This document shows positions 4,540 to 47,744 of a DNA stretch of 47,794 nt, in pieces (within the stretch, counting starts at the first letter, position 1; each line of letters opens with the position of its first letter). The translations under genes and the position numbers were made by a program. The notes beneath the pieces were generated by a model. It was given only the letters and a program-made list of their open reading frames with translations. It did not search any database and was not told the DNA's origin. Source of the DNA: Syntrophomonadaceae bacterium. Lineage in GTDB: Bacteria; Bacillota; Syntrophomonadia; Syntrophomonadales; Syntrophomonadaceae. The stretch lies in NCBI GenBank assembly GCA_028706315.1, contig JAQWBP010000015.1, forward strand, positions 1-47,794, read 5' to 3'.

Positions 4540-7500
4540 CTAGTACCTTCTTAGGGCCACAGTTTTAATATTTTCAATCATTGTATCTATCTGATCAAAG
4601 GTCATTTTAGGAAAATGCTTTTTCTTGACTAGATACAAAAGTTCATCTATCTCCTGAGAAATTTTCTTATGAACATCTGGATTATCGTGCCAATCCACCT
4701 TACAATGCCTTTCAATAATCACGTCAACTTCCATTGCAATATCGGCTAAAATACCTTCATAGTTGTAGATAGGGCCATCTTCTGCCACTAACTCTGTAAC
4801 TCCTGCTTCATAATACCTTTCATCTTCAAGCACTTCTTTAACCACACCATAAAAGGCTTGAGCATGGATATTATGTTTGATTTTCTCTGGGTAAGTTGTA
4901 CCTGAATACCCCTTTCTAAAATCATTCATAACATTTCGCATTTTTTCTAGGTATTCTAATTCAGAGATTCTTTTCTCCTTATACTGCTCTATGATTTCTT
5001 CAATACGTTCGGAGAATTTCTTATAATAAGCTGGATTCTCATCCCACTTTTCACTGATGCGTTTTGTCATTCTTGTACGAATTGCATCTGCTTTAGCTCT
5101 TGGCGAACCCAAACGCATCAACTCATCTTCGAACTCTTTTTCATTCAGGATATCCACTGGTGCCGTTATCTGAATGATATCTTCCGCAGCAATATAGGTA
5201 TCCATCAGATTTCTCATCTTAGCCTCATACTCTTTATGATCAATGGTGTCAGAATATCTAAGCTTTACAGAAGCTCTAAGTTCTTGATAAAACTTAAACT
5301 CACGTTTATAAAGCTTGATATCATCTTCACCTATGGCATTATAGACATGCTCTGACTCAAGAGCTATACCTAAGTATTTTCCGAAGTTACTTAACTGATT
5401 ATAGAAGTCATTTCGAAGGGCTTCATCACCTAGCAACAGTTCGTACTCTTCCTTATCCTGTTTGTTTTTGATTCCTTTGAATATGGCCACAACATTTGAA
5501 TAGGATTCTCTTAGTTTTCCTACTATACTAATGACATCAACTAGTGCACCTTCAAGATCTTTTCCATCAAAGTTTTCAAGACCCGCACCTGAATAGGTTC
5601 TCATAGCTGAATCCAGTTCTTGAATAAGTCCTCTATAATCTACTATTAACCCAAAATCCTTTCCTTCATAGAGCCTGTTCACACGTGCTATAGCCTGCAA
5701 CAAAGTATGCTCTTTCATCGGTTTATCAACATAGAGAACAGATGCCCTAGGAGCGTCAAAACCAGTTAAAAGCTTATCGACTACAATCAAAATTTCTAAT
5801 TCATCACCATCAATAAATTCACTCTTGATGTGGTCTTCATATTTTTGTGGATCACTGTAGGCTTCCATCATCTTATTCCAAAATTTGAGAACACGATCTT
5901 TTGGTTCTTCATCAACCTCGTCATACCCTTCCCGTTGATCTGGCGGTGAAATAACAATAGCTGTTTTTAAATCTCCATATTCATCAAAGGACTCTTTGTA
6001 ACGAATGGCATCAAATTTTGATGCTGTGGCTAGCATTGCTTTTGCAAAGGTATCTTTATAAAATTTTGTATAATGTACGTAGATATCATCTGCAATCAAA
6101 CGAATACGCTGTTCTGATGAAGCAATTGCTTCAAATTTACTCCACTTCTTTTTAAGTTCTTCTGCTTGCTTCTCAGCCAAATTCCTCGTAATCATTTCAA
6201 TACGCTTATCAATAGCATTCCGATTTACTGTCTGTTCAACAAGTCTTCCTTCGTAGAGCAGTGGCACAATGGCACCATCTTCAACACCATCTTTAATAGT
6301 GTACTTGTGAATCATACGTCCACCGAACTTCTTCATGGTACTCTTATCTTTTTTCATCAAAGGTGTACCTGTAAACCCTAAATAACAGGCATTCGGGAAT
6401 ACTTTCTTCATTTTGATATTTAGTTCTCCATATTGGGTCCTATGAGATTCATCAATTAATACAAATATATTTTTTGACTTTACAGGTTTCTGATGCTTTG
6501 AAGCAGTATCAAACTTATGTACCAAAGATGTAATAATATCTGCTCCGTTATTGTTAATCAGCTCTACAAGATGCCTCCCGCTTATGGCTCTTTCGGCTCT
6601 CAGTCTCGAATGATTAAAGGTTTGATGTATCTGGCTATCTAGTTCGATTCGGTCTGTAATGACCAACACCTGGGGATGAATATCAGCAAACTGAGATAAA
6701 ATGTACCTTGAAAGCATCACCATAGTTAGGGACTTACCTGAACCTTGAGTATGCCAAATAACACCTGATTGGCGGTTACCATTCCTATCGGTTTCTACAA
6801 TGGTTCTAATGATTTCTTTGATAGCGAAATACTGTTGGTATCTTGCTATCTTTTTTATATTTTTATCATACAATGTGAAAAAACGTATAATTTCTATAAC
6901 TCTTTTTGGATGAAACAGGGAAATAATATTTTTATCCTGCACCGTTGGTATTCTACAAGTAACAGTCTCTGCTAGTGTTTCTTCAAACCACTTATACTCA
7001 ATAGACTCCTTATCTTCTTTCCATAATGACCAAAACTTTTTAGGTGTTCCAGTAGTGGCATACTGGGTTTCATTCTTGTTTGTAACCATGACAATCTGAA
7101 CAAATTTGAATAGCTGTGGAATATATTCTTTTCCCTGATTTCTAAGCATTTGGCTAATTCCCTGAGAGATAGAGATACTTGCTTTCTTACATTCAATCAC
7201 CCCAAATGGAATGCCGTTAATAAAAGTAACAATGTCAGGACGTACAGTACCTTGTCCATCCTCTCGTTCCACCGAAAATTCTTCCACCACATGGAAAACA
7301 TTGTTCTCAGGATTTTCCCAATCAATATAGTTCAGATTAAAGGACTTCGTACCATCCATTTCAGAAAGACTTTCTGGATAGCTCCGGCCTAAAATTAATG
7401 AGTCATAAATCTTCTCATTGGTTTTAATTAAACCATCTGTTAACGCTTCTTCAATATCAAGTATTGCCTGCTGAATATTCTTTTCTGAAAACTTATATGT

Positions 7501-33518: not shown

Positions 33519-33565
33519 ATGGTGGGCCATACAGGAATCGAACCTGTAACCTTCTGATTAAGAGT
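33519..33565 (-). repeat. attL: 47-bp 3' fragment of tRNA-Lys
   Basis: These 47 bases are identical to 47668-47714 and cover the CCA end, T arm and anticodon-stem side of the tRNA-Lys gene. After position 33565 the sequence departs from a tRNA, so this is the displaced 3' end at the left junction of the element. Confidence 0.95.
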
Positions 33566-33704: not shown

Positions 33705-34601
33705 TTACCTTTTAAAAGTACTCACCCATGTTGTTATTTGCTCGATTTTTATACCGGTAGCTCTGGCTATTTCCTCTGGACTTTTTCCTTCCCTCCAGAG
33801 CAATCTAACCTTTTTCTTCCTAGCTTTGTTATTTCTTTGGTTGACCCTGTTTTGACATTCAGGACTGCAATACTGGGGTTCGCCACGCAAGTCTTCAGGA
33901 TAAAAGAAATTACCACAACGAGGATCAGCACATTTATATGGACCACCTTTAGTAGTAAGATCAAGAAAAAGCATAAAATAGAGTGCTGAAATAAGATCAG
34001 GAATAGCCCAGTCCCACTCTAAAACTGGGCGCTGACCAGGCTCTTTATATCTCATTACCAGTACTGGTGATATGCCTGCGAGATAAGGCTTAGTAGAATC
34101 AAAGGTATATTCCAATCTATCCTCTCTACTCTCAAAAATCATATCGTCCCAGTCTAATTCCCCACCCTGAACTGGATCTCCAGAAATAAGCTTTTTGAAA
34201 TCTTTTCCTGCTTCCATAAACCTCTTGAATGTAGCATATGCGTCATAAAAAGGAAATAGTTCAACTTTAGCGCCTCCATTCTCTTCGAAATTTTCCCAGG
34301 GGCTATAAAGAGGGCCAAACTTTTCAACCCATCTTTTTACCTGTTCTTTATCTGAACAATCCAATGATGCAAACAAATGATGTAGATATAAACCTTTATA
34401 ACTGTTACCTTTTCTTCCAAGAATATAGTTAACTAAATGCTCAGGTACAGGTGCGCGATAATAATCAAACGGGTAATAATATTCCATGTTTTCAGAATCA
34501 TTCTCTTTAGAACTGTTTATATAGATAACACCATCTAAAATACAACACTTTTCCCATGCAGACCACTTGACATTATTCATTGTAAAAGCTGGATTGTGCA
34601 T
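33705..34601 (-). CDS. CGNR-type zinc-finger protein with C-terminal HTH
   Basis: The 298-aa protein has a long N-terminal region without recognised domain, then a zinc-finger CADPRCGNFF...YCSPECQNRVNQR (about 235-270). CQNR stands where the family has CGNR. A C-terminal helix-turn-helix follows (SPEEIARATGIKIEQITTWV). It is probably a DNA-binding regulator. It is the first gene inside the left end and is transcribed toward attL, divergent from the primase operon; an inverted repeat in the shared promoter region (34629-34658) may be its operator. SD AGGAGG precedes the ATG. Confidence 0.75.
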   Translation of the reverse strand: MHNPAFTMNNVKWSAWEKCCILDGVIYINSSKENDSENMEYYYPFDYYRAPVPEHLVNYILGRKGNSYKGLYLHHLFASLDCSDKEQVKRWVEKFGPLYSPWENFEENGGAKVELFPFYDAYATFKRFMEAGKDFKKLISGDPVQGGELDWDDMIFESREDRLEYTFDSTKPYLAGISPVLVMRYKEPGQRPVLEWDWAIPDLISALYFMLFLDLTTKGGPYKCADPRCGNFFYPEDLRGEPQYCSPECQNRVNQRNNKARKKKVRLLWREGKSPEEIARATGIKIEQITTWVSTFKR

Positions 34602-34722: not shown

Positions 34723-34914
34723 ATGGCTAAGCAGGAGACTAAAAACCCAATGGCATTATCACCAGCTAAAGCAGCCGACAAACTGGGGCTATCCCCAGGT
34801 GTTGTTCGGCAGATGATATACGATAGTAAACTTCCCGCTGTACAGGTAGGGCGTAGATGGATCATTCCCGTTAAGGCCCTTGAAAGATGGCTTGATGAGC
34901 AGGTGCAAGGCTAA
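34723..34914 (+). CDS. Small HTH (excisionase/MerR-like) protein
   Basis: The 63-aa protein is a single winged helix-turn-helix: LSPAKAADKLGLSPGVVRQM followed by LPAVQVGRRWIIP and ALERWL, the HTH_17/excisionase pattern. SD AAGGAGG precedes the ATG. It is the first gene of the primase operon and lies 10 nt before the primase. It may be the excisionase or a replication regulator. Confidence 0.85.
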   Translation: MAKQETKNPMALSPAKAADKLGLSPGVVRQMIYDSKLPAVQVGRRWIIPVKALERWLDEQVQG

Positions 34915-34924
34915 GGAGCAGGAT

Positions 34925-37297
34925 ATGAATGCAGTAATGAAGCAGGTTACAGACCCAACAACTATTGCGGTAAATTTCTTTCTGAACCTATACAGCGAGG
35001 AGTCCGTTGGGTATTTAATTATATTTGCTATTAACAAAAAAACAAATAAGAAAACTAGTTACCCGTTTCCCGCAACCGCGGAGGGAATATTAGCCGCGGC
35101 TACTAAGGCTGTAGGGTTATCAGATAATAATAACCTTCAAGTGTATTATTCCCTAGGGTTACAAAAAGAACTTCCACCAAGCAGCAGTAGACGCGGGACG
35201 GCAGCGGGAGTAGTGACAATCCCCGGCTTTTGGATGGATATTGATATAAAAGGTCCTGGGCATGCAGAAGAGAATCTACCGCTAACCCGGGAGGAAGCAG
35301 TAATATTTGCTAAAACCGTTATTCCACTACAGCCGAGTCTAATAATTTTTTCTGGTGGTGGCCTACAGGTGTATTGGCTATTTAGGGAACCCTGGGTTTT
35401 TGATGGCTATGATGAATGGGAAGCAGCTGCAAGTCTTTCCCGGCATTTCCAGCATACCCTCCGACATAAAGCACAAGAAAAAGGCTGGGAACTGGATGGC
35501 ACGGCTGACCTAGCCCGAGTACTGAGGCCACCAGGGACTTTTAATAACAAGCTGGAACCAGTAGAGGTTGTAATCCTGGAAGATAACCCAGCTGCACGTT
35601 ATAACCCCGAGGACTTTGGGCCATACATGTTGGAATATGAGGAGTTACCCTACTGGGACGGTACAACTGGAGAGGATTTTCCACCAGCCGTCATTGATCC
35701 GATCATAAAAGGTTGTCAGTGGATGCGGCATTGCCGGGATAATGCGGACAGGCTACCTGAGCCGGAATGGTACGCACTACTTTCAGTCCTGGCTTGCTGC
35801 GAGAATGGCAACGAACTGGCTCATGAGTGGAGCAAGCCCTATCCAGGGTATAGCCCGGAGGAAACTGACCGAAAGTTTAACCAGTCGATTAAGGCTTCGG
35901 GACCTAGAACCTGCCAGTATATCAGGGAGAATTTGAATGTAGAATATTGTAGTAAATGTAAGCGAAAAGTAAAAAGTCCTGCTGTTTTGGGATTACCTAA
36001 AAAACGGGCTTACTTTGATGAGCAGGGAACCTTTATCCCCGCCTGGTTAGCTGAGGACTTGATGGTTGAGTATTATATCAAAAATGCGGCGAGTGATTTC
36101 TGGATTTATGAAAACGGGGTTTACAGACCTGGTGGTGATAAGGTTTTAGCCGCAGCAGCTCAACGTAAATTAGGAACGTTTACACGGACAAGCCGGATAA
36201 GAGAAACCCTAGATTTTATAAGGCGGGCTTCTTATACGGAATTACCCAAACCTAATCGAAATTTTATAAATGTTAGGAACGGGCGGCTAGAGTGGCGAAC
36301 TGGAAAGTTGTACTCACACAGTCCGGGGACATTCGAAATCGTACAGTTACCAGTAAACTATGATCCTGCAGCCACCTGCCCGGTTTTTGACCGATACCTT
36401 GAGACTACCCTAGACAAAGATGCAGCGCAGTTGGCTATAGAGATTATTGGATATTGCCTTATACCGGATACACGCTATGAGAAAGCTTTTATGCTGACCG
36501 GAAGTGGTAGGAACGGTAAAAGTATCTTCCTATCAGTAATTGATAACCTAATAGGAACCGAAAACGTATCCCATATAGCCCTGCAGGATCTAGAAGAAAA
36601 CAAATTTAAAGCAGCTGGGTTACTAGGAAAATTGGTTAATACTTTTGCAGACCTTGATAGCCGAGCACTAAAAAGTACTACACTTCTAAAAATGTTGACC
36701 TCTGGGGATCCCATAGACGCCGAAAAAAAATTTAAGGATGGCTTTACCTTCACAAACTATGCACGACTAATTTTTAGTGCGAATACGATACCGCGAACAA
36801 GTGATACAACATTCGCATTTTATGAACGCTGGGTAATTCTTCCCTTTGAGCGGGTTTTTGATGTAAATAACCCTAATACGGATCCGGGTTTACGTGAAAA
36901 ATTATCAGCGCCAGAAGAGCTGTCAGGCATCCTGAACAAAGCACTCATTGGGTTGCAAAACTTATATCTGCTGGGAGGTTTTACCCAGCCCGCAAGTGTA
37001 CGTGCGGCTTTGAGCGAGTACAAGAAACAAAACGATTCAGTATTGGCTTTCTGTGATGAATGTGTAGAACCAGGGAGGTTTGTAAGCAAAGCTGCTTTTT
37101 ACAATGCCTATAAAATGTGGTGCGAACAGCAAGGGCTACGACCTGTTAGCCAAAAGAGATTGAAACCCAGTCTTTTGCAATCCTTTCCAAATGTTACTGA
37201 AGCACGCGATGGGAATTATGGTTCACGTGGCTGGGTTGGTATTCAACTAAATGATGAAGCACCTTCAATAATAGAGTTCGGCAGATACTTAGATTAA
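34925..37297 (+). CDS. Primase-helicase (P4/D5-type replication protein)
   Basis: This 790-aa protein should start replication of the excised element. The N-terminal half has a primase-polymerase fold: GFWMDIDIKG (metal-binding Asp pair, about 110), IIFSGGGLQVYWLF and DLARVLRPPGTFNNK. A cysteine pair (CSKCKRK, about 345) follows. The C-terminal half is an SF3/D5-type helicase with Walker A TGSGRNGKS (about 522), TFADLDSRAL, the LTSGDPIDAEKKFK region and LIFSANTIPRTSD. I chose ATG 34925 (GGAG upstream) over a frame start at 34880, which overlaps the HTH gene. The iteron array follows at once. Confidence 0.92.
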   Translation: MNAVMKQVTDPTTIAVNFFLNLYSEESVGYLIIFAINKKTNKKTSYPFPATAEGILAAATKAVGLSDNNNLQVYYSLGLQKELPPSSSRRGTAAGVVTIPGFWMDIDIKGPGHAEENLPLTREEAVIFAKTVIPLQPSLIIFSGGGLQVYWLFREPWVFDGYDEWEAAASLSRHFQHTLRHKAQEKGWELDGTADLARVLRPPGTFNNKLEPVEVVILEDNPAARYNPEDFGPYMLEYEELPYWDGTTGEDFPPAVIDPIIKGCQWMRHCRDNADRLPEPEWYALLSVLACCENGNELAHEWSKPYPGYSPEETDRKFNQSIKASGPRTCQYIRENLNVEYCSKCKRKVKSPAVLGLPKKRAYFDEQGTFIPAWLAEDLMVEYYIKNAASDFWIYENGVYRPGGDKVLAAAAQRKLGTFTRTSRIRETLDFIRRASYTELPKPNRNFINVRNGRLEWRTGKLYSHSPGTFEIVQLPVNYDPAATCPVFDRYLETTLDKDAAQLAIEIIGYCLIPDTRYEKAFMLTGSGRNGKSIFLSVIDNLIGTENVSHIALQDLEENKFKAAGLLGKLVNTFADLDSRALKSTTLLKMLTSGDPIDAEKKFKDGFTFTNYARLIFSANTIPRTSDTTFAFYERWVILPFERVFDVNNPNTDPGLREKLSAPEELSGILNKALIGLQNLYLLGGFTQPASVRAALSEYKKQNDSVLAFCDECVEPGRFVSKAAFYNAYKMWCEQQGLRPVSQKRLKPSLLQSFPNVTEARDGNYGSRGWVGIQLNDEAPSIIEFGRYLD

Positions 37298-37299
37298 AA

Positions 37300-37544
37300 T
37301 AGCCACCTTTAGCCAGGTTTTAGCCAGGATTGTAGCCAGGATTAAACCGCGCTAATTGGGGTTTAGCCAGGATAGCCAGGGTTAATGCTATTAATTAATA
37401 AAAAGTTGAAAAGGCGGGGGTGTAGATATAGAAAGGTAAATATATAAAAGGTTTCTGAATAAAGCTGGCTATCCTGGCTAAAGGTGGCGTGGCGAAGGTT
37501 ACAGAGGTTGTAACCCTGGCTAAAAGGTGGCTCAACCCTGGCTA
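37300..37544. repeat. Iteron array, candidate replication origin
   Basis: TAGCCAGG occurs exactly at 37310, 37321, 37333, 37364 and 37373, with a variant (TAGCCACC) at 37300. The inverted form CCTGGCTA occurs at 37473, 37515 and 37537, with variants near 37464, 37483 and 37527. Spacings of 11, 12 and 31 bp keep the sites on one helix face. An AT-rich stretch with ATTAATTAATAAAA lies between the two groups. This resembles a plasmid or satellite origin that an initiator binds; the primase-helicase gene ends only 3 nt before it. Confidence 0.75.
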
Positions 37545-37745
37545 TTGAATCGAAAGGAGGTTATAGAAGTAAAAGATCATGATTATAATGACCCGAAATT
37601 GTCCCTATTTCTAGAAGCGGTTAGGCCTGAGATAAAAAACTTGTTTAATGATCTCATCTGTAAAAAGGGCTATGAGGAAGGATTATATATTTTTGAGCAG
37701 CTGCTGGCAGAACTGGTGGCTAAGGTAGGACTTGATGCGGTATAG
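37527..37745 (+). CDS. Small acidic protein after the iterons, start unclear
   Basis: A frame of up to 72 aa ends KKGYEEGLYIFEQLLAELVAKVGLDAV and is helical and acidic; I do not recognise it. Its start is puzzling. GTG 37527 and TTG 37545 lack an SD and lie inside the iterons. A perfect AAAGGAGG (37553-37560) is followed at 8 nt by the in-frame codon GTA, not a normal start. The short coding region may be real with an unusual start, or a fragment. Confidence 0.45.
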   Translation: MAQPWLLNRKEVIEVKDHDYNDPKLSLFLEAVRPEIKNLFNDLICKKGYEEGLYIFEQLLAELVAKVGLDAV

Positions 37746-38000: not shown

Positions 38001-38792
38001 TTGAAAGATAAAAAACGGATGGCAGTAATAAAGCAGTCAATGAAGCCTAACACACTGGATATGTATATTTACGGTGATGTTGTGGATGATTACTTCGACT
38101 GGCGGACAGATCAGATTATTGAAAGTGAGACTTCAGCTAATTACTTCAGAGATGAGTTGGCCAAGTATCCTAATGTCAGTCAAATTAATGTCTACATAAA
38201 TTCAATCGGTGGGTCCCTGGTTGAAGGGATGGGAATCTACAATCAGCTGAAACGCCACTCGGCTAAAAAGACTGTCTATATCGATGGTTTCGCGTGTTCG
38301 GTGGCCTCAGTAATTGCTATGGCAGGTGATAAGGTTATCATGCCAAGGAATACCATGATGATGATCCATAATTGCTGGGTTACTGCTATAGGTAATTCCC
38401 GTGAACTCAGGAAAGCTGCTGATGACCTGGACGTTATTATGAAAGGCAACCGCCAGGCGTACCTTGATAAATCAGGCGGGAGAATATCAGAGAAAAAGCT
38501 TATTGAGTTTTTGGCTGCTGAGACCTGGCTAACTGCTGAAGACTGTATAAAATACGGTCTGGCTGATGAGTATGCTGCCAACAATGCAGATCTGACTGAG
38601 GCGAAGCAGGTATTAAATAGCCTGATTAATTCTAATCAGCGGCTGGCAGCTAAATTAAAAGACACGTTTAGGGACACGAATAAGGACTCCGTTCAGAGTA
38701 ACAAGACTAGAGTGAAATTAGCAGCCCTATTAGGAGGTCTAAAACCTTCAGACATAGTAAAAGCGGCTATAGAAAAAGAGAGGAGAAGCTAA
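38001..38792 (+). CDS. ClpP-like phage prohead protease
   Basis: The 263-aa protein matches the ClpP-related head-maturation proteases: INVYINSIGGSLVEGMGIYN, the nucleophile Ser in DGFACSVASVIAMAGD (about 95), the His in MMMIHNCW (about 117), and AETWLTAEDCIKYGLADE. In tailed phages it trims scaffold and capsid proteins. Here no capsid or scaffold gene is present, so its substrate is unknown. The start is TTG 38001 behind GGGGGGTGA. It is followed by a TAATG overlap with the next gene. Confidence 0.9.
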   Translation: MKDKKRMAVIKQSMKPNTLDMYIYGDVVDDYFDWRTDQIIESETSANYFRDELAKYPNVSQINVYINSIGGSLVEGMGIYNQLKRHSAKKTVYIDGFACSVASVIAMAGDKVIMPRNTMMMIHNCWVTAIGNSRELRKAADDLDVIMKGNRQAYLDKSGGRISEKKLIEFLAAETWLTAEDCIKYGLADEYAANNADLTEAKQVLNSLINSNQRLAAKLKDTFRDTNKDSVQSNKTRVKLAALLGGLKPSDIVKAAIEKERRS

Positions 38793-39478
38793 TGAGATTA
38801 TTAATCGAGAATTTATTTAACAGAAAAGAAGTGGAGGTCGAGGAAATGCCAGAACCTATACAGTTGAAAGCGGGCCAGTCTTATATGGCCCTGGTGAACG
38901 AGGAACTTAACACCAAAACTGCTGCACCGATAGAAGCAGAGATAATCAGGCTGAGGAAAGCCCAGGAGGAAGCCCGGGCGATGTGGTTTAAAAAGAATCC
39001 TGGCGGGGTTCCGGTCATCCGGGGCCAGGTTCAGCTCCCTGACCATGATGACGAGATTATTAAAACCATGGGATTAATCAAGGCGCGCCTGGAGGCTAAA
39101 GAAAAGGAACTTCGGGAAACTCGGTATAAGTGCCAGCCAGATTTGGGGCTTATGTCCCTGGCTCGACAGTTGGACCGGTTGGGAAGCCACCAGGTGGCAG
39201 CGCGGTTATTTAGCCAGTTTGCGAAAACGGTAAACGAACAGATGGACATATTAAATAAGATAGAACGGCTATACCGCGGGCAATACTATGCACCCCAGAA
39301 CTTTGGGCGACTGCAGGAGGTACTCCGTGAGATGATATCAGCTCTAAACCAAGTTGGGATACCAACCTATGACAGAAAGGAACTGGAGGCCCAATTCGCT
39401 GACCGGCTGGCCATGTTAAGGCAGCAGCGCGTGGATCAGGATGACCGCTTGACAAAGTTGCGAAGTTTAATTGACTAA
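38792..39478 (+). CDS. Coiled-coil protein of unknown function
   Basis: I do not recognise this 228-aa protein. It is rich in charged helices, with likely coiled coils at about 45-65 and 90-115, and a segment WFKKNPGGVPVIRGQVQLPD. The ATG overlaps the protease stop, so they are translated together. In place of the usual capsid gene after a ClpP-like protease, it may be a scaffold- or chaperone-like partner. Confidence 0.72.
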   Translation: MRLLIENLFNRKEVEVEEMPEPIQLKAGQSYMALVNEELNTKTAAPIEAEIIRLRKAQEEARAMWFKKNPGGVPVIRGQVQLPDHDDEIIKTMGLIKARLEAKEKELRETRYKCQPDLGLMSLARQLDRLGSHQVAARLFSQFAKTVNEQMDILNKIERLYRGQYYAPQNFGRLQEVLREMISALNQVGIPTYDRKELEAQFADRLAMLRQQRVDQDDRLTKLRSLID

Positions 39479-39531
39479 GTACCCACCTGCCATTGACCCT
39501 CCCGGCTCACTAAATAGCTAGGGAGGGGGTA

Positions 39532-39873
39532 GTGGCAAATAGCCTTAAAATATCAAATGGAGAGGAGAAAAAAACATTGAAAGAAGTAAACATAAAACTT
39601 GACCGGGAGCGTACTTTAAAACTTGACCTTAACGCTTTTTGTCTATTAGAGCAGAGATTTGAAAATATTGATCGGGCACTAAAAGAACTAGAGCGAGGCT
39701 CAATGCAGGCTATTAGAACCTTACTATGGACCGCATTGGCCCATGAGGACCCTCTTTTAACTGAAGAAGAAGCCGGGAAATTAGTAACTATTGAGAATAT
39801 TGAAGAAGTTGTGGGAGCAATAGCTAAAGCTTTGGGGGAAGCAAAACCAAGAAATTACAGCCCCGGCAATTAG
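39532..39873 (+). CDS. Phage tail assembly chaperone-like protein
   Basis: The 113-aa protein starts with a short beta-rich part (KEVNIKLDRERTLKLDLNAF), followed by helices (LLEQRFENIDRALKEL, RTLLWTALAHEDPLLTEEEA). This architecture and its place directly before the tape-measure gene match tail assembly chaperones (gpG-like, TAC). Such proteins coat the tape measure during tail assembly. Start GTG 39532 follows GGGAGGGGG. I see no obvious slippery site for a frameshift extension. Confidence 0.75.
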   Translation: MANSLKISNGEEKKTLKEVNIKLDRERTLKLDLNAFCLLEQRFENIDRALKELERGSMQAIRTLLWTALAHEDPLLTEEEAGKLVTIENIEEVVGAIAKALGEAKPRNYSPGN

Positions 39874-39885
39874 GGAGGGATATTA

Positions 39886-42456
39886 ATGGCAATAGAAATA
39901 GGCAATATGGTAGCAAAGGTAAGTATGGACCAGACCGGCTTTCAGCAGGGTATATCGAAATTAAACCGTGAGCTCAAAGTAGTACAGTCTGAATTTAGAG
40001 CCTCCTCCGCCCAGTTGGGTGACTTCGGGAAAAGTACAGAGGGACTAAAACTTAAAGCAAATTCCCTTACTAAACAATTAGATTTGCAAAAGCAAAGAGT
40101 ACAGGCCTTGGAAGGTGCCTATAAAAAATCAGTAGAGACTAAAGGCGCCGATGCAAAGGCTACCCAGAACCTTGAGATTCAGCTTAACAAAGCCCGGGAA
40201 CAGATGGCCAGGACTGAAAATACCCTCAAAAGTGTAACTGCCGAGATAGAAAAACAAAGCAACAAGTGGCACCAACTGTCTACTGGGTTGCAAGAGGCCG
40301 GCACCAAACTAAAGGGTATGGGTGGCAAGCTCGCAGACGTTGGCAAAAATCTTTCCATGAAAATAACTGCACCACTAGCAGCTCTGGGTGGGATGGCAGT
40401 TAAGACCGGCATAGACTTCGAAGCCGCTATGTCTGAAGTTGGTGCAATATCCGGGGCGACTGGTGAGGAGCTGGCAGCACTGGCGGCTAAAGCTAAGGAG
40501 CTGGGAGCTACCACTAAGTTTAGCGCCTCAGAAGCAGCCGAAGGCTTAAAGTATATGGTAATGGCCGGGTGGGATACACAGCAGCAACTGGCAGGGTTAC
40601 CTGGAGTGCTGAACCTAGCCGCCGCATCTGGTGAGGATTTGGGACGGGTTTCTGATATAGTGACCGATGCTATGACAGCGTTTGGTATGGAAGCAGCCCG
40701 AGCTGGAGAGTTTGCCGACACCCTGGCGGCTGCAGCATCAAGCTCAAATACTAATGTGGGAATGTTAGGTGAATCCTTTAAATACGTTGCACCAGTAGCC
40801 GGGGCACTCGGGTATTCGGTAAAAGATGCTTCTATTGCCCTGGGTTTAATGGCTAATGCAGGTATAAAAGGAACTCAGTCTGGTACTGCCTTGCGTGCTA
40901 CCCTAACCCGGTTAGTAAAACCACCCAGGGAAGCAGCCGATGCTTTAAATAGTTTAGGTATATCGATTAAAAACAGTGACGGAAGCATGAAGAGCTTAAG
41001 CGAAGTAATGGGGAGTGTACGCGCAGCATTTGCTAACCTAACCCCGGACCAGCAGGCTTTTTATGCGGCTCAAATAGCTGGGCAGGAAGCTATGTCTGGC
41101 CTACTGGCTATAGTCAATACATCCGAACAGGATTATAACAAGCTCAGCGATGCTATTAATGGTAGCGCTGACGCGGCGAATCGTATGGCTAAAGAGATGC
41201 AGGATAATCTTCATGGGCGCTTAGTTGAATTAAAAAGTGCACTGGAGGGCGTAGCTATACAATTGTATGATGTAATGCAACTGGTATTAGAAAATATAGT
41301 AGCATCACTACAAAACCTTGTAGCCTGGTTTGCTAACCTCAGCCCGGCTATGCAAAAAAACATAGTAATTATTGCCGGACTTGCTGCAGCTATTGGCCCA
41401 CTATTAATGATGATAGGGCAAATGGCTATAGGAATTGCAGCGATTACTACCGTTGTCGGAAAAGCGGCATTAGCTTTTTCAGCAGCTGGAGGAGCAGCCG
41501 GGATATTAGGGGGTGCACTTACAGTATTAACCGGACCGATAGGTATAGCCATAACTGCTATCACTGCAGTAGTAGCAGCAGGGGTATTACTGTATAAGAA
41601 CTGGGACACGATTAAGGAAAAAGCCGTAGAGCTAGGGCAAAAAATAGCTGAATCATGGGAAGCACTTAAAAATAAAGTAATTGCCATTTGGGATACCATA
41701 AAGAACGCAGTAGTTGGTGCTTTCCAGTGGATGTACGACCATAACTACTATTTTCAGTGGATAGTTGATGTAGTCACAAAAGCCTGGGAAATGATCCGGT
41801 ATGTTACTGAGACTGTTTGGAACGCTGTCTCAGGTTTTTTGACAGCCTTATGGGCCCGTATTCGCAACCAGGCTGAAAATATGTGGGGTGCTATCTATGG
41901 TGTTATTAAAAATACAACTGATCGCATACAGGAATGCTTTGACGGACTTGTGAACTCTGCTTTTAATTGGGGCAAAAACCTACTGGGTGAATTTATTAAC
42001 GGGATTAAGTCTATGATGTCAGCTCTATGGGACACATTAACTGATATTGGAGAGACCGTGGCGGGATTCCTGGGCTTTCATAGCCCAACCAAGTTAGGAC
42101 CAGGCCGCTTTGCTGATGAGTGGGCGCCTAACTTTATGAAGATGTTTGCAGAGGGTATTGAAGAAAATACACCACTACTTCAAAAAAGCCTTATTAGAGC
42201 AGCTAAGGAACTGGGAACAGTGCAAGTACGCTTTGCTATGCCGGCTATCTCAGAGCTGGGGGTTACAGCCCGCATGGCCCTACTTACACCCAGTGGCATT
42301 ATGTCAAGCACCAGTATAATGAATTCATCTTCAAGTACAACGACACACGGCCCTATCATTTTTCAACCTGGCGCGATTCAGATCCATGGCCATAATGCTG
42401 ATGAGGTAATGGATAAGCTTACCCGGGAATTGCACAAGCGTGGGGTTGGATTCTAA
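39886..42456 (+). CDS. Phage tail tape measure protein
   Basis: The 856-aa protein has the TP901-type tape-measure start (GFQQGISKLNRELKVVQSEF), a coiled coil (about 55-140), a conserved core with TKFSASEAAEGLKYMVMAGW and GIKGTQSGTALRATLTRLVKPP, and two to three hydrophobic segments (about 500-570) that would cross the host membrane during DNA entry. The end has FLGFHSPTKLGPGRFADEWAPNF, typical of these proteins. It sets tail length in Siphoviridae-like phages. It is intact, yet no tail tube or baseplate genes accompany it. Confidence 0.93.
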   Translation: MAIEIGNMVAKVSMDQTGFQQGISKLNRELKVVQSEFRASSAQLGDFGKSTEGLKLKANSLTKQLDLQKQRVQALEGAYKKSVETKGADAKATQNLEIQLNKAREQMARTENTLKSVTAEIEKQSNKWHQLSTGLQEAGTKLKGMGGKLADVGKNLSMKITAPLAALGGMAVKTGIDFEAAMSEVGAISGATGEELAALAAKAKELGATTKFSASEAAEGLKYMVMAGWDTQQQLAGLPGVLNLAAASGEDLGRVSDIVTDAMTAFGMEAARAGEFADTLAAAASSSNTNVGMLGESFKYVAPVAGALGYSVKDASIALGLMANAGIKGTQSGTALRATLTRLVKPPREAADALNSLGISIKNSDGSMKSLSEVMGSVRAAFANLTPDQQAFYAAQIAGQEAMSGLLAIVNTSEQDYNKLSDAINGSADAANRMAKEMQDNLHGRLVELKSALEGVAIQLYDVMQLVLENIVASLQNLVAWFANLSPAMQKNIVIIAGLAAAIGPLLMMIGQMAIGIAAITTVVGKAALAFSAAGGAAGILGGALTVLTGPIGIAITAITAVVAAGVLLYKNWDTIKEKAVELGQKIAESWEALKNKVIAIWDTIKNAVVGAFQWMYDHNYYFQWIVDVVTKAWEMIRYVTETVWNAVSGFLTALWARIRNQAENMWGAIYGVIKNTTDRIQECFDGLVNSAFNWGKNLLGEFINGIKSMMSALWDTLTDIGETVAGFLGFHSPTKLGPGRFADEWAPNFMKMFAEGIEENTPLLQKSLIRAAKELGTVQVRFAMPAISELGVTARMALLTPSGIMSSTSIMNSSSSTTTHGPIIFQPGAIQIHGHNADEVMDKLTRELHKRGVGF

Positions 42457-42466
42457 ATGGTATAAT

Positions 42467-42488
42467 CCAGCTTATAAGAGCTGGTTTA
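42467..42488 (+). terminator. Weak terminator after the tape measure gene
   Basis: CCAGCT and AGCTGG enclose a 6-nt loop and are followed by TTTATAT on the plus strand, 10 nt after the stop. Just downstream an SD-like AGGAG precedes a 17-codon frame, perhaps the stub of a lost tail gene. Confidence 0.45.
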
Positions 42489-42600
42489 TATAGGAGCATT
42501 CCTTTGGACGTGCTTAAAAATTCTCCTTTCTTTGCCCCTGGGGGCCCTCAATTTTGAGGAACCCTGGGGGTTTAATAGTAACCCTGGGGAGGCGGTAGAA

Positions 42601-42984
42601 ATTACTAACCAGGTCAAAATAAACTATCTGCAACGGTATTCAACACTAACACTGGAGACGAAAAGGGCTCTGGCCGAAGTAGACTACTGGATGGAACTAC
42701 ACAGTAAGGCAGCTAGCTTTCTCACTGACGCAGTAATGAAAAAGATAAGAAACGTGGTAAGCGATTTATACCAGCGGGCAATATACTTACAATCCGTTTG
42801 CAACGCCCTCCAGGGGAGCATAAGCGCTGTGGAAGATGAACGGTACCAGCAGCTGTTAAAATACAGATATATTGGTGGGTTAACGTTTGAACAGATTGCA
42901 GAAAAAATGTTTTACTGCCCACGATATATTCTGCGATTACATAAAAAAGCACTGGAGGGAATAACCCTGCTGGATGCTAAATGA
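42601..42984 (+). CDS. ArpU/DUF1492-like late-gene regulator
   Basis: The protein (127 aa from ATT 42601; frame open from TTG 42532) ends with a sigma-region-4-like helix-turn-helix: YQQLLKYRYIGGLTFEQIAE followed by CPRYILRLHKKALE. This matches ArpU/RinA-type regulators that activate late phage genes. The start is unusual: the only SD, GGGGAGG (42586-42592), is 8 nt before an ATT codon, and the TTG at 42532 has none. The first 23 residues of the longer frame look non-coding. Confidence 0.78.
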   Translation: MTNQVKINYLQRYSTLTLETKRALAEVDYWMELHSKAASFLTDAVMKKIRNVVSDLYQRAIYLQSVCNALQGSISAVEDERYQQLLKYRYIGGLTFEQIAEKMFYCPRYILRLHKKALEGITLLDAK

Positions 42985-44843: not shown

Positions 44844-44875
44844 ATTGGTATAACTACATGAAAGGGGAGCTGCCA

Positions 44876-45055
44876 TTGGAATTTATGACGGTAACGGAAG
44901 TTGCGGAGCAGTTGCAGGTAGCCGAGAACACAGTAAGGCGTTGGATCCGGGAGGGTAAACTAGAAGCCTTTAAAGTGGGCAGAGGTTATCGCGTAACAAA
45001 GGAACAGTTTAATGCTTTCTTACAAGCGACTTCGACAAAAAAAGAATCAGACTAA
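44876..45055 (+). CDS. Excisionase-family HTH protein
   Basis: The 59-aa protein is a clear HTH_17 domain: MTVTEVAEQLQVAENTVRRW, then GKLEAFKVGRGYRVTKEQF. I chose TTG 44876 (GGGGAG at 6 nt); an ATG at 44858 is upstream of that SD and about at the predicted transcription start. It is the first rightward gene of the operon that ends in the integrase, so it is the best candidate for the excisionase. Confidence 0.85.
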   Translation: MEFMTVTEVAEQLQVAENTVRRWIREGKLEAFKVGRGYRVTKEQFNAFLQATSTKKESD

Positions 45056-46350: not shown

Positions 46351-47568
46351 ATGGCGAAGAAGGACAAGCAGGAACCGAAGAAAAAACGCAGAGCTAATGG
46401 CGAAGGAAGTGTATGGCAGCGGCCTAATGGAACCTGGGTAGCTCAGGTTAGTTTTACTGATCCGGCAACTGGCAAGCCAGACCGGAAAGCAGTGTCGGGT
46501 AAAACTAAGCAGGAAGTATTAAAGAAAAAGCGTAAACTGGAGACAGCGAAAGATATTAACCGTTTAGTAAGTAACGACAAAATAACCCTGGGGCAGTGGA
46601 TTGACCGATGGCTGGAGGTTTATAAAAAACCAGCATTAAAATATTCCACCTGGTATTCATATAAGCAGTTGGCAGACCTTCACATTAAACCAGGCCTGGG
46701 TAAAAAGCCCCTGGATCGGTTGCGGCCAAACGAAATACAGGCTTTTTATAATAAGCTATCTGAATCAGGTAGAATTGATATGGGCAAGCAGACCGAAGGT
46801 AAGCCGGCTGGCCTATCTCCCCGGACGGTTAGGTTGTGCCACATAGTGATTAATGGCGCATTGAAACAGGCAACAAAGGAAGGTTTAATTATGTGGAACC
46901 CAGCGGATGCCACCGATCCACCGCGACAGGTTAAGAAGGAAATAGCCCCACTTACCACTGACCAGGTGATTTACTTTCTGGATGCCATAAAAGAACATGA
47001 GATATATTCGGTCATAGTTACCGACCTGGGAACCGGACTAAGACGCGGGGAGCTGCTAGGTTTAACCTGGCCTGATATTGACCTGGAAGGAAAAACCGCC
47101 ATTATAAGGCAATCCTTATTACAAGTGGGTGGTAAGGTGTATTTGCAGGATGATGTTAAGACTAAAGCTAGTAAGGCTACCATAACCCTACCGGATGAAG
47201 TGGTAAAGGTGCTAAAGCAGGTTAAGAAGGACCAGGCGCAGCATAAGCTATTACTAGGGGAAGCATACCAGGATAATTACCTGGTGTTTTGTAGAGAAGA
47301 TGGAACACCATACAGACCAGATGTTATTTATCATACCTTCAAAGACTTACTTAAAGAGCATGGCCTACCTGATGTGAGCTTTCATGCCCTGAGACATACA
47401 TTCTGCACTATGCTATTAGAGCAGAATGAAGAGCTTTCTACCGTGAGCAAATTAGCCCGCCATAACAGCCTATCTATCACGTCTGACATATACGGTCATT
47501 TAACCAGACCTATGAGGGAAAAAGCAGCTAGTAAACTGGATAACATACTGGCTAGGAAAAGCAAATAA
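46351..47568 (+). CDS. int: Tyrosine recombinase integrase
   Basis: The 405-aa protein has an N-terminal arm-binding domain (GEGSVWQRPNGTWVAQVSF), a SAM-like core-binding domain (about 70-165) and a catalytic domain. The catalytic set is visible: Arg in GTGLRRGELL, Lys in KTKASKATI, HALRHTF (His and Arg), the second His in LARHNS and the nucleophile Tyr in SDIYGHL. It integrates and excises the element at tRNA-Lys. It faces the intact tRNA, with attR 100 bp downstream. SD AAGGAGG precedes the ATG. Confidence 0.96.
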   Translation: MAKKDKQEPKKKRRANGEGSVWQRPNGTWVAQVSFTDPATGKPDRKAVSGKTKQEVLKKKRKLETAKDINRLVSNDKITLGQWIDRWLEVYKKPALKYSTWYSYKQLADLHIKPGLGKKPLDRLRPNEIQAFYNKLSESGRIDMGKQTEGKPAGLSPRTVRLCHIVINGALKQATKEGLIMWNPADATDPPRQVKKEIAPLTTDQVIYFLDAIKEHEIYSVIVTDLGTGLRRGELLGLTWPDIDLEGKTAIIRQSLLQVGGKVYLQDDVKTKASKATITLPDEVVKVLKQVKKDQAQHKLLLGEAYQDNYLVFCREDGTPYRPDVIYHTFKDLLKEHGLPDVSFHALRHTFCTMLLEQNEELSTVSKLARHNSLSITSDIYGHLTRPMREKAASKLDNILARKSK

Positions 47569-47655: not shown

Positions 47656-47668
47656 CGGCATTTCTAGA

Positions 47669-47744
47669 TGGTGGGCCATACAGGAATCGAACCTGTAACC
47701 TTCTGATTAAGAGTCAGCTGCTCTACCGATTGAGCTAATGGCCC
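47669..47744 (-). tRNA. tRNA-Lys(CTT), intact, with attR
   Basis: The minus strand folds as a tRNA: acceptor GGGCCAT/ATGGCCC, D arm, anticodon loop CTCTTAA giving anticodon CTT (Lys, codon AAG), T arm with GGTTCGATTCC, and an encoded CCA end. The last base pair of the anticodon stem (G-A) is a mismatch. Its 3' 46 bases belong to the 47-bp repeat (47668-47714), so the gene was restored by the element on insertion. Bases 47745-47794 show nothing further. Confidence 0.95.

Follow-up and report, generated by a model that had tools for sequence, protein, structure and literature searches.

A bipartite iteron array behind a SaPI5-like primase-helicase gene as the probable replication origin of an integrated phage-like element

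The region from 37300 to 37544 of the window, by which we mean the whole 47,794-nucleotide stretch of DNA that was analysed, is very probably where an integrated phage-like element of 14.1 kb has its replication origin, which appears to work in the manner of SaPI/PICI origins. An earlier note on this DNA had taken the region for a likely replication origin, and this notion is supported by the occurrence of the array with the primases of two related contigs (L003 and L071), by the retention of its layout with other repeat words elsewhere, and by the likeness of the adjoining protein to the SaPI5 primase-helicase. The array is bipartite, since the direct copies of its 8-bp repeat all lie to the left of an AT-rich core and the inverted copies all to the right. 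The array and the gene that it follows comprise the following features.

34880 to 37297, plus strand: primase-helicase of 805 aa, putative initiator (Pfam, profile and fold matches)
37300 to 37307, plus strand: outermost direct iteron TAGCCACC, degenerate, one 10-bp step ahead of the first exact copy (from sequence)
37310 to 37317, plus strand: direct iteron 1, TAGCCAGG (exact match)
37321 to 37328, plus strand: direct iteron 2, TAGCCAGG (exact match)
37333 to 37340, plus strand: direct iteron 3, TAGCCAGG (exact match)
37347 to 37361, plus strand: box CCGCGCTAATTGGGG, not an iteron, separating outer from inner direct iterons (comparison with L071)
37364 to 37371, plus strand: direct iteron 4, TAGCCAGG, of the inner pair (exact match)
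37373 to 37380, plus strand: direct iteron 5, TAGCCAGG, innermost (exact match)
37381 to 37463, no strand: AT-rich core, proposed melting site (73% AT)
37464 to 37471, minus strand: innermost inverted iteron TAGCCAGC, one mismatch (near-copy)
37473 to 37480, minus strand: inverted iteron TAGCCAGG (exact match)
37515 to 37522, minus strand: inverted iteron TAGCCAGG (exact match)
37526 to 37533, minus strand: inverted iteron GAGCCACC, degenerate, in register at 11 bp with the iterons on either side (from sequence)
37537 to 37544, minus strand: outermost exact inverted iteron TAGCCAGG (exact match)

The exact copies of the 8-mer, which had been put at a minimum of five direct and three inverted, were counted as five and three between 37310 and 37544, and when the one-mismatch copy and the degenerate copies in register are added to these eight the total comes to about 11. 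The word TAGCCAGG occurs 15 times in the window against 1.77 expected, a number reached by none of 100 shuffles, and 8 of the 15 copies fall within the 235 bp of the array. Furthermore, direct pairs of the word at most 30 bp apart are in the entire 2.5-Mb genome all found in the array (five matches, with none for a reversed-pattern control), and a blind detector of bipartite arrays applied to the whole window ranks the array first (8.5), the runners-up being poly-T tracts (6.0). A nucleotide match to the array DNA was found in none of the 60 related genomes searched.

The helical phasing proposed for the repeats is borne out by the distances from the innermost copies, which fit a 10.7-bp period (R=0.95), though only seven distances enter the fit; the right half of the array is less regular than the left, having a 42-bp step and degenerate copies. 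The gap across the core measures 92 bp. The core was likewise described as AT-rich, and at 73% AT it does exceed the 56% of the element, but it is only moderately AT-rich and is broken by GGCGGGGG; its best 50-bp stretch belongs to the top 6% or so of the element for AT content.

The array adjoins the primase-helicase gene as claimed, the first exact iteron lying 13 bp past the stop codon of an intact gene. The Pfam domains of the product are D5_N, DUF5906 and Pox_D5, and the domain order is an N-terminal AEP-like primase, a D5_N/DUF5906 helicase core and a C-terminal winged helix of the Pox_D5/RFX type. The top profile match is the SaPI5 primase-helicase (7ola, E=8e-54), which is also matched by phmmer, and sequence profiles furthermore match the N-terminus to the PrimPol AEP domain 6zp9 and the C-terminus to the RFX winged-helix DNA-binding domains 8zjr and 1dp7. 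The AlphaFold model is confident for residues 377-799, and the seven best PDB matches returned by Foldseek are all chains of the SaPI5 primase-helicase, the first being 7ola with E=3e-23. The N-terminal 370 residues of the model are unreliable, with long stretches of pLDDT <50, and were left uninterpreted, so that the assignment as a primase rests on the profile match to 6zp9. The protein had been called a P4/D5-type primase, but the nearest relative is of the SaPI/PICI type rather than the phage P4 type.

Scans of genome contigs and of viral contigs with the single protein returned one relative each, and a query with an alignment returned 80 loci. Only two loci with both a closely related primase and readable downstream DNA were found, on the metagenomic contigs L003 and L071, and both carry the array. 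The L003 primase is 70% identical over the helicase half, and a TAGCCAGG array is found at the same place, with exact or one-mismatch copies at -13, -2, 10, 22, 54 and 63 from the stop codon followed by the core and inverted copies. The L071 primase is 67% identical and the copies of its array are TAGCCAGG, TAGCCATA and GCGCCATA; when the GCGCCATA copies are counted, the steps of the direct half (10-11-12-31-9) are identical in L071 and the window, and the inner inverted steps of 9 and 42 agree as well. The equivalent of the degenerate iteron at 37300 is TAGCCAGG in L071, at the same 10-bp step, and copies of the GCGCCATA type are found there on the same side as the degenerate inverted iteron at 37526-37533. 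The GCCA core of each repeat is common to all three arrays, as is AAATATATA within the AT-rich core, which also contains CTATTAATTAATA in common with L071. In the closest relative from the host family, L004 (65%), the contig ends right after the primase, and the rest of that genome yielded no AGCCAGG triple.

These comparisons also decide on the notion that the array is a chance or mutational tandem repeat devoid of function. Unrelated tandem repeats of the same word do exist, since 14 other viral contigs have three close copies of TAGCCAGG, but these are plain, monotone head-to-tail repeats with no inverted partners adjoining, whereas in the window the spacers vary and the halves are opposed. 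It is consequently the primase, not the word, that the bipartite form accompanies, and since the layout is conserved beside homologous primases in L003 and L071 the chance repeat is refuted, its probability being negligible.

A further feature common to the window and L071 is the box CCGCGC(T/C)AATTGGGG, located between the outer direct iterons and the inner ones; the L071 copy differs from CCGCGCTAATTGGGG by one base (4361). The box is neither an iteron nor a DnaA box, and it is possibly a host-factor contact or a second contact of the initiator. As to the surroundings, the stretches L071:152-6440 and L003:1665-3812 each have an HK97-type major capsid gene shortly after the origin, and in L071 an integrase precedes the primase. 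The two loci are possibly compact elements of the order int, primase, ori and capsid, be they capsid-forming satellites or very small phages.

In a wider survey, the DNA following D5-type primase genes of the same phylum, of annotated phages and of viral contigs was scored by a detector ignorant of word and spacing, a region counting as positive when no shuffle was as good. Positive downstream regions numbered 16 of 48 and 33 of 79, as compared with 1 of 34 upstream controls and 2 of 48 and 3 of 79 intragenic ones. The same layout is found with other iteron words after remoter primases (TGACCGGG, TGAACGGG, GTGACAGT, GTAGCAGT and TTCGAAGC), with GGGGACAT in mycobacteriophage Taquito and with GTGACGGA in a Lacticaseibacillus phage. 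Many of the surveyed D5 primases have no detectable array, and in some of these loci, from Oceanotoga, Proteus and Vibrio phages, the intergenic gap is absent altogether; in an archaeal MAG (L002), copies of AACCCCTA can be seen by eye but do not rise above shuffles. Two side observations concern the layout of individual loci. In arrays of the GTGACAGT type a lone iteron of opposite orientation occurs within the long gap that separates the outer iterons from the inner ones (L039, 44 and 260; L043, 35; L047, 44; positions relative to the primase stop), and in L039 it is mirrored on the right. Locus L072 has a second, convergent D5-type primase-helicase fragment of 302 aa (6234-7142, minus strand) downstream of the first on the same contig.

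The distances from the innermost copies cluster around 9, 32, 42, 53, 64, 74, 85 and 95 bp over the surveyed loci. At the loci with other words, 66 of 137 distances are at most 1 bp from the ruler of the window, where 18% would be expected and 17% are obtained in shuffles; they have a period of 10.8 bp in common, for which R is 0.57 as opposed to 0.04 after shuffling, and 26 of 28 loci are individually above the expected fraction. Among 30 loci the iteron word correlates with the identity of the winged helix (Mantel r=0.35, p=2e-4) and, with the same p, of the helicase core (r=0.30), although the p-values of the survey are too optimistic, as the loci are related by descent and their independence is overstated. 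The near-equal correlation for the helicase core points to co-inheritance of word and initiator and not to recognition by the winged helix as such. We lean towards the view that the bipartite phased ruler is a general origin architecture of D5/SaPI5-type primase-helicases in phages, prophages and satellites of several phyla, the ruler being fixed by the double hexamer and the word drifting with the initiator.

Among known systems the SaPI and PICI origins are closest in kind. Opposed repeats at SaPI origins load two head-to-head hexamers (PMC9894130), in PICI origins the AT-rich region 3' of rep is invariably flanked by two sets of iterons (PMC6092414), and the C-terminal domain of the SaPI5-like helicase class has been reported to recognise iterons directly downstream of its gene (PMC7581432). 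As far as features visible in sequence are concerned, the array fits the SaPI scheme in every one. The SaPI/PICI replicons (SaPIbov1, SaPI5 pri-rep-ori) have the origin directly 3' of the initiator gene and an initiator with an AAA+ helicase and a C-terminal DNA-binding domain, and the window likewise has the 3' position, five direct and three (plus one) inverted iterons around the AT core, and an initiator related to SaPI Rep. They differ in that the iteron word TAGCCAGG is peculiar to the window element and in that the SaPI5 primase-helicase and the window protein share 20-21% identity over the aligned fold. Working like a SaPI/PICI origin, the array would have its iterons of about 8 bp (core GCCA, consensus TAGCCAGG) recognised by the C-terminal winged helix of the primase-helicase, and both half-arrays would be bound with all sites on one helical face, given steps of 9-12 bp or of about 31/42 bp. 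One hexamer would be loaded by five to six direct iterons and a second, facing the first, by four to five inverted ones, whereupon the two opposed AAA+ hexamers may melt the AT-rich core and the fused AEP primase domain may start synthesis on the excised circle.

A similar arrangement is found in Streptococcus thermophilus phage Sfi21, the origin of which is given as a 302-bp element (Foley et al. 1998, as cited in PMC6356513). The Sfi21 record annotates the region as replication origin and the layout is as in the window, with a non-coding region that follows the primase gene, in Sfi21 overlapping its 3' end, and with TTAGTTACT pairs that face inverted copies across an AT-rich core. Sfi21 has however a different word, fewer clear copies and an AAAT simple repeat in the core, and it is a complete temperate phage. 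SCCmec Cch2 is likewise a D5-type helicase, and its C-terminal domain in isolation binds short repeats that immediately follow the gene for Cch2 (PMC7581432), but there are only three AAGTG iterons in one direct-repeat region, and opposed halves are unneeded for binding. Iteron plasmid origins of the RepA/RepE/TrfA type, where direct-repeat iterons are bound by a small Rep recruiting the DnaB of the host and DnaA boxes are usually present, do not match what we find, namely opposed halves, an own helicase and primase and no DnaA box, the sequence TTWTNCACA being absent from the arrays of the window, L071 and L003. The alpha protein of phage P4 resembles the window protein in being the fused primase-helicase initiator of an integrative satellite. 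In P4, however, ori and crr are separate sites, whereas the window array is one compact bipartite site.

It should also be considered that the array may be an operator, with TAGCCAGG as the binding site of a repressor or activator that belongs to the element and controls the genes following the primase, or else a site of iteron-like autoregulation. Iterons are able to serve as operators too, the array sits between two genes on the same strand, and the element encodes a CGNR/HTH regulator (33705-34601) as well as HTH_17 proteins. Such a role is nonetheless highly unlikely, since promoter-like sites, as well as terminator-like ones, are at chance level in the array region and since the layout is kept across gene neighbourhoods, following the primase genes of phages with unrelated neighbours and regulators. 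In addition, two opposed sets around an AT core are unnecessary in an operator, and the TAGCCAGG word accompanies the primase in L003 and L071. The region furthermore folds as RNA far better than shuffles (z=-4.9, 0 of 200), as would be expected of a structured RNA or attenuator, with a long hairpin arising from the inverted repeats of the primase transcript. This explanation is exceedingly improbable despite the folding, since repeats in opposition fold by their very construction and the only match obtained in Rfam was the tRNA; nor was a terminator found. The repeat unit is moreover short and helically phased in DNA, each side having up to six nearly identical copies of it, and in L003 and L071 many copies have degenerated in one half alone; a stem would be disrupted by this, while the GCCA core is kept.

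As a replication origin the array is a new example of the known SaPI/PICI type. The apparent sharing of the ruler by phages and prophages is less known, although the organisation has been called unique to PICIs (PMC6092414), and judging from the open-licence literature individual phage cases such as Sfi21 are known already, making this a unification rather than a discovery from nothing. If true, it would mean that PICIs inherited a phage-type origin instead of owning a unique one, and that initiator-iteron pairs can be read from sequence at scale. The many natural pairs may then help to show what determines the word that a winged helix selects, and by what means two hexamers come to face each other.

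The element itself extends over 14,149 bp from a 47-bp repeat to a tRNA-Lys gene, and the features that define it besides the primase and the array are given here.

33519 to 33565, no strand: attL, 47-bp direct repeat of the 3' part of tRNA-Lys (repeat comparison)
44858 to 45055, plus strand: excisionase-like HTH_17 protein of 65 aa (domain match)
46351 to 47568, plus strand: tyrosine integrase of 405 aa (Pfam Phage_integrase)
47668 to 47714, no strand: attR, 47-bp direct repeat within the tRNA-Lys(CTT) gene at 47669-47744 on the minus strand (repeat comparison)

The element thus contains PICI parts, i.e. an integrase, an excisionase-like HTH_17 protein, a primase-helicase, an ori and a 47-bp att in tRNA-Lys, but not the PICI gene order, in which int is beside a divergent rpr/stl repressor and structural genes are few. 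The position of int at the far end, on the same strand as the primase, and the presence of phage tail genes indicate that it is not a canonical PICI. Genes for a ClpP-type protease, a tail-assembly chaperone, a tape-measure protein and an ArpU-like regulator are kept at 38001-42984, and since no terminase, portal or major capsid was recognised among the element genes scanned, the element is a decayed prophage or satellite-like.

On this account the array may be the relic of an origin that no longer fires, a notion to which the next ORF (37527-37745), having no good start codon after its ribosome-binding site, lends some weight. We consider a dead origin rather unlikely. The primase, the integrase, the excisionase-like gene and both 47-bp att repeats are all intact, and the survival of five plus three exact copies over a divergence to 67-70% protein identity needs either selection or a recent loss. 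The element may replicate after excision, as the note had implied, and with a concrete origin and initiator at hand this becomes a simple test.

Adjoining attL and divergent from the primase is the gene of a CGNR zinc-finger protein with a C-terminal HTH (33705-34601, minus strand), which is a candidate regulator of the element. With respect to the small ORF after the array, its GTG start lies inside the inverted iterons, and a good ribosome-binding site, AAAGGAGG at 37552, is followed by no in-frame ATG, GTG or TTG. The ORF may be damaged in the window or may use a rare start codon; in L003 an ORF (1665-1916) starts cleanly beyond the array.
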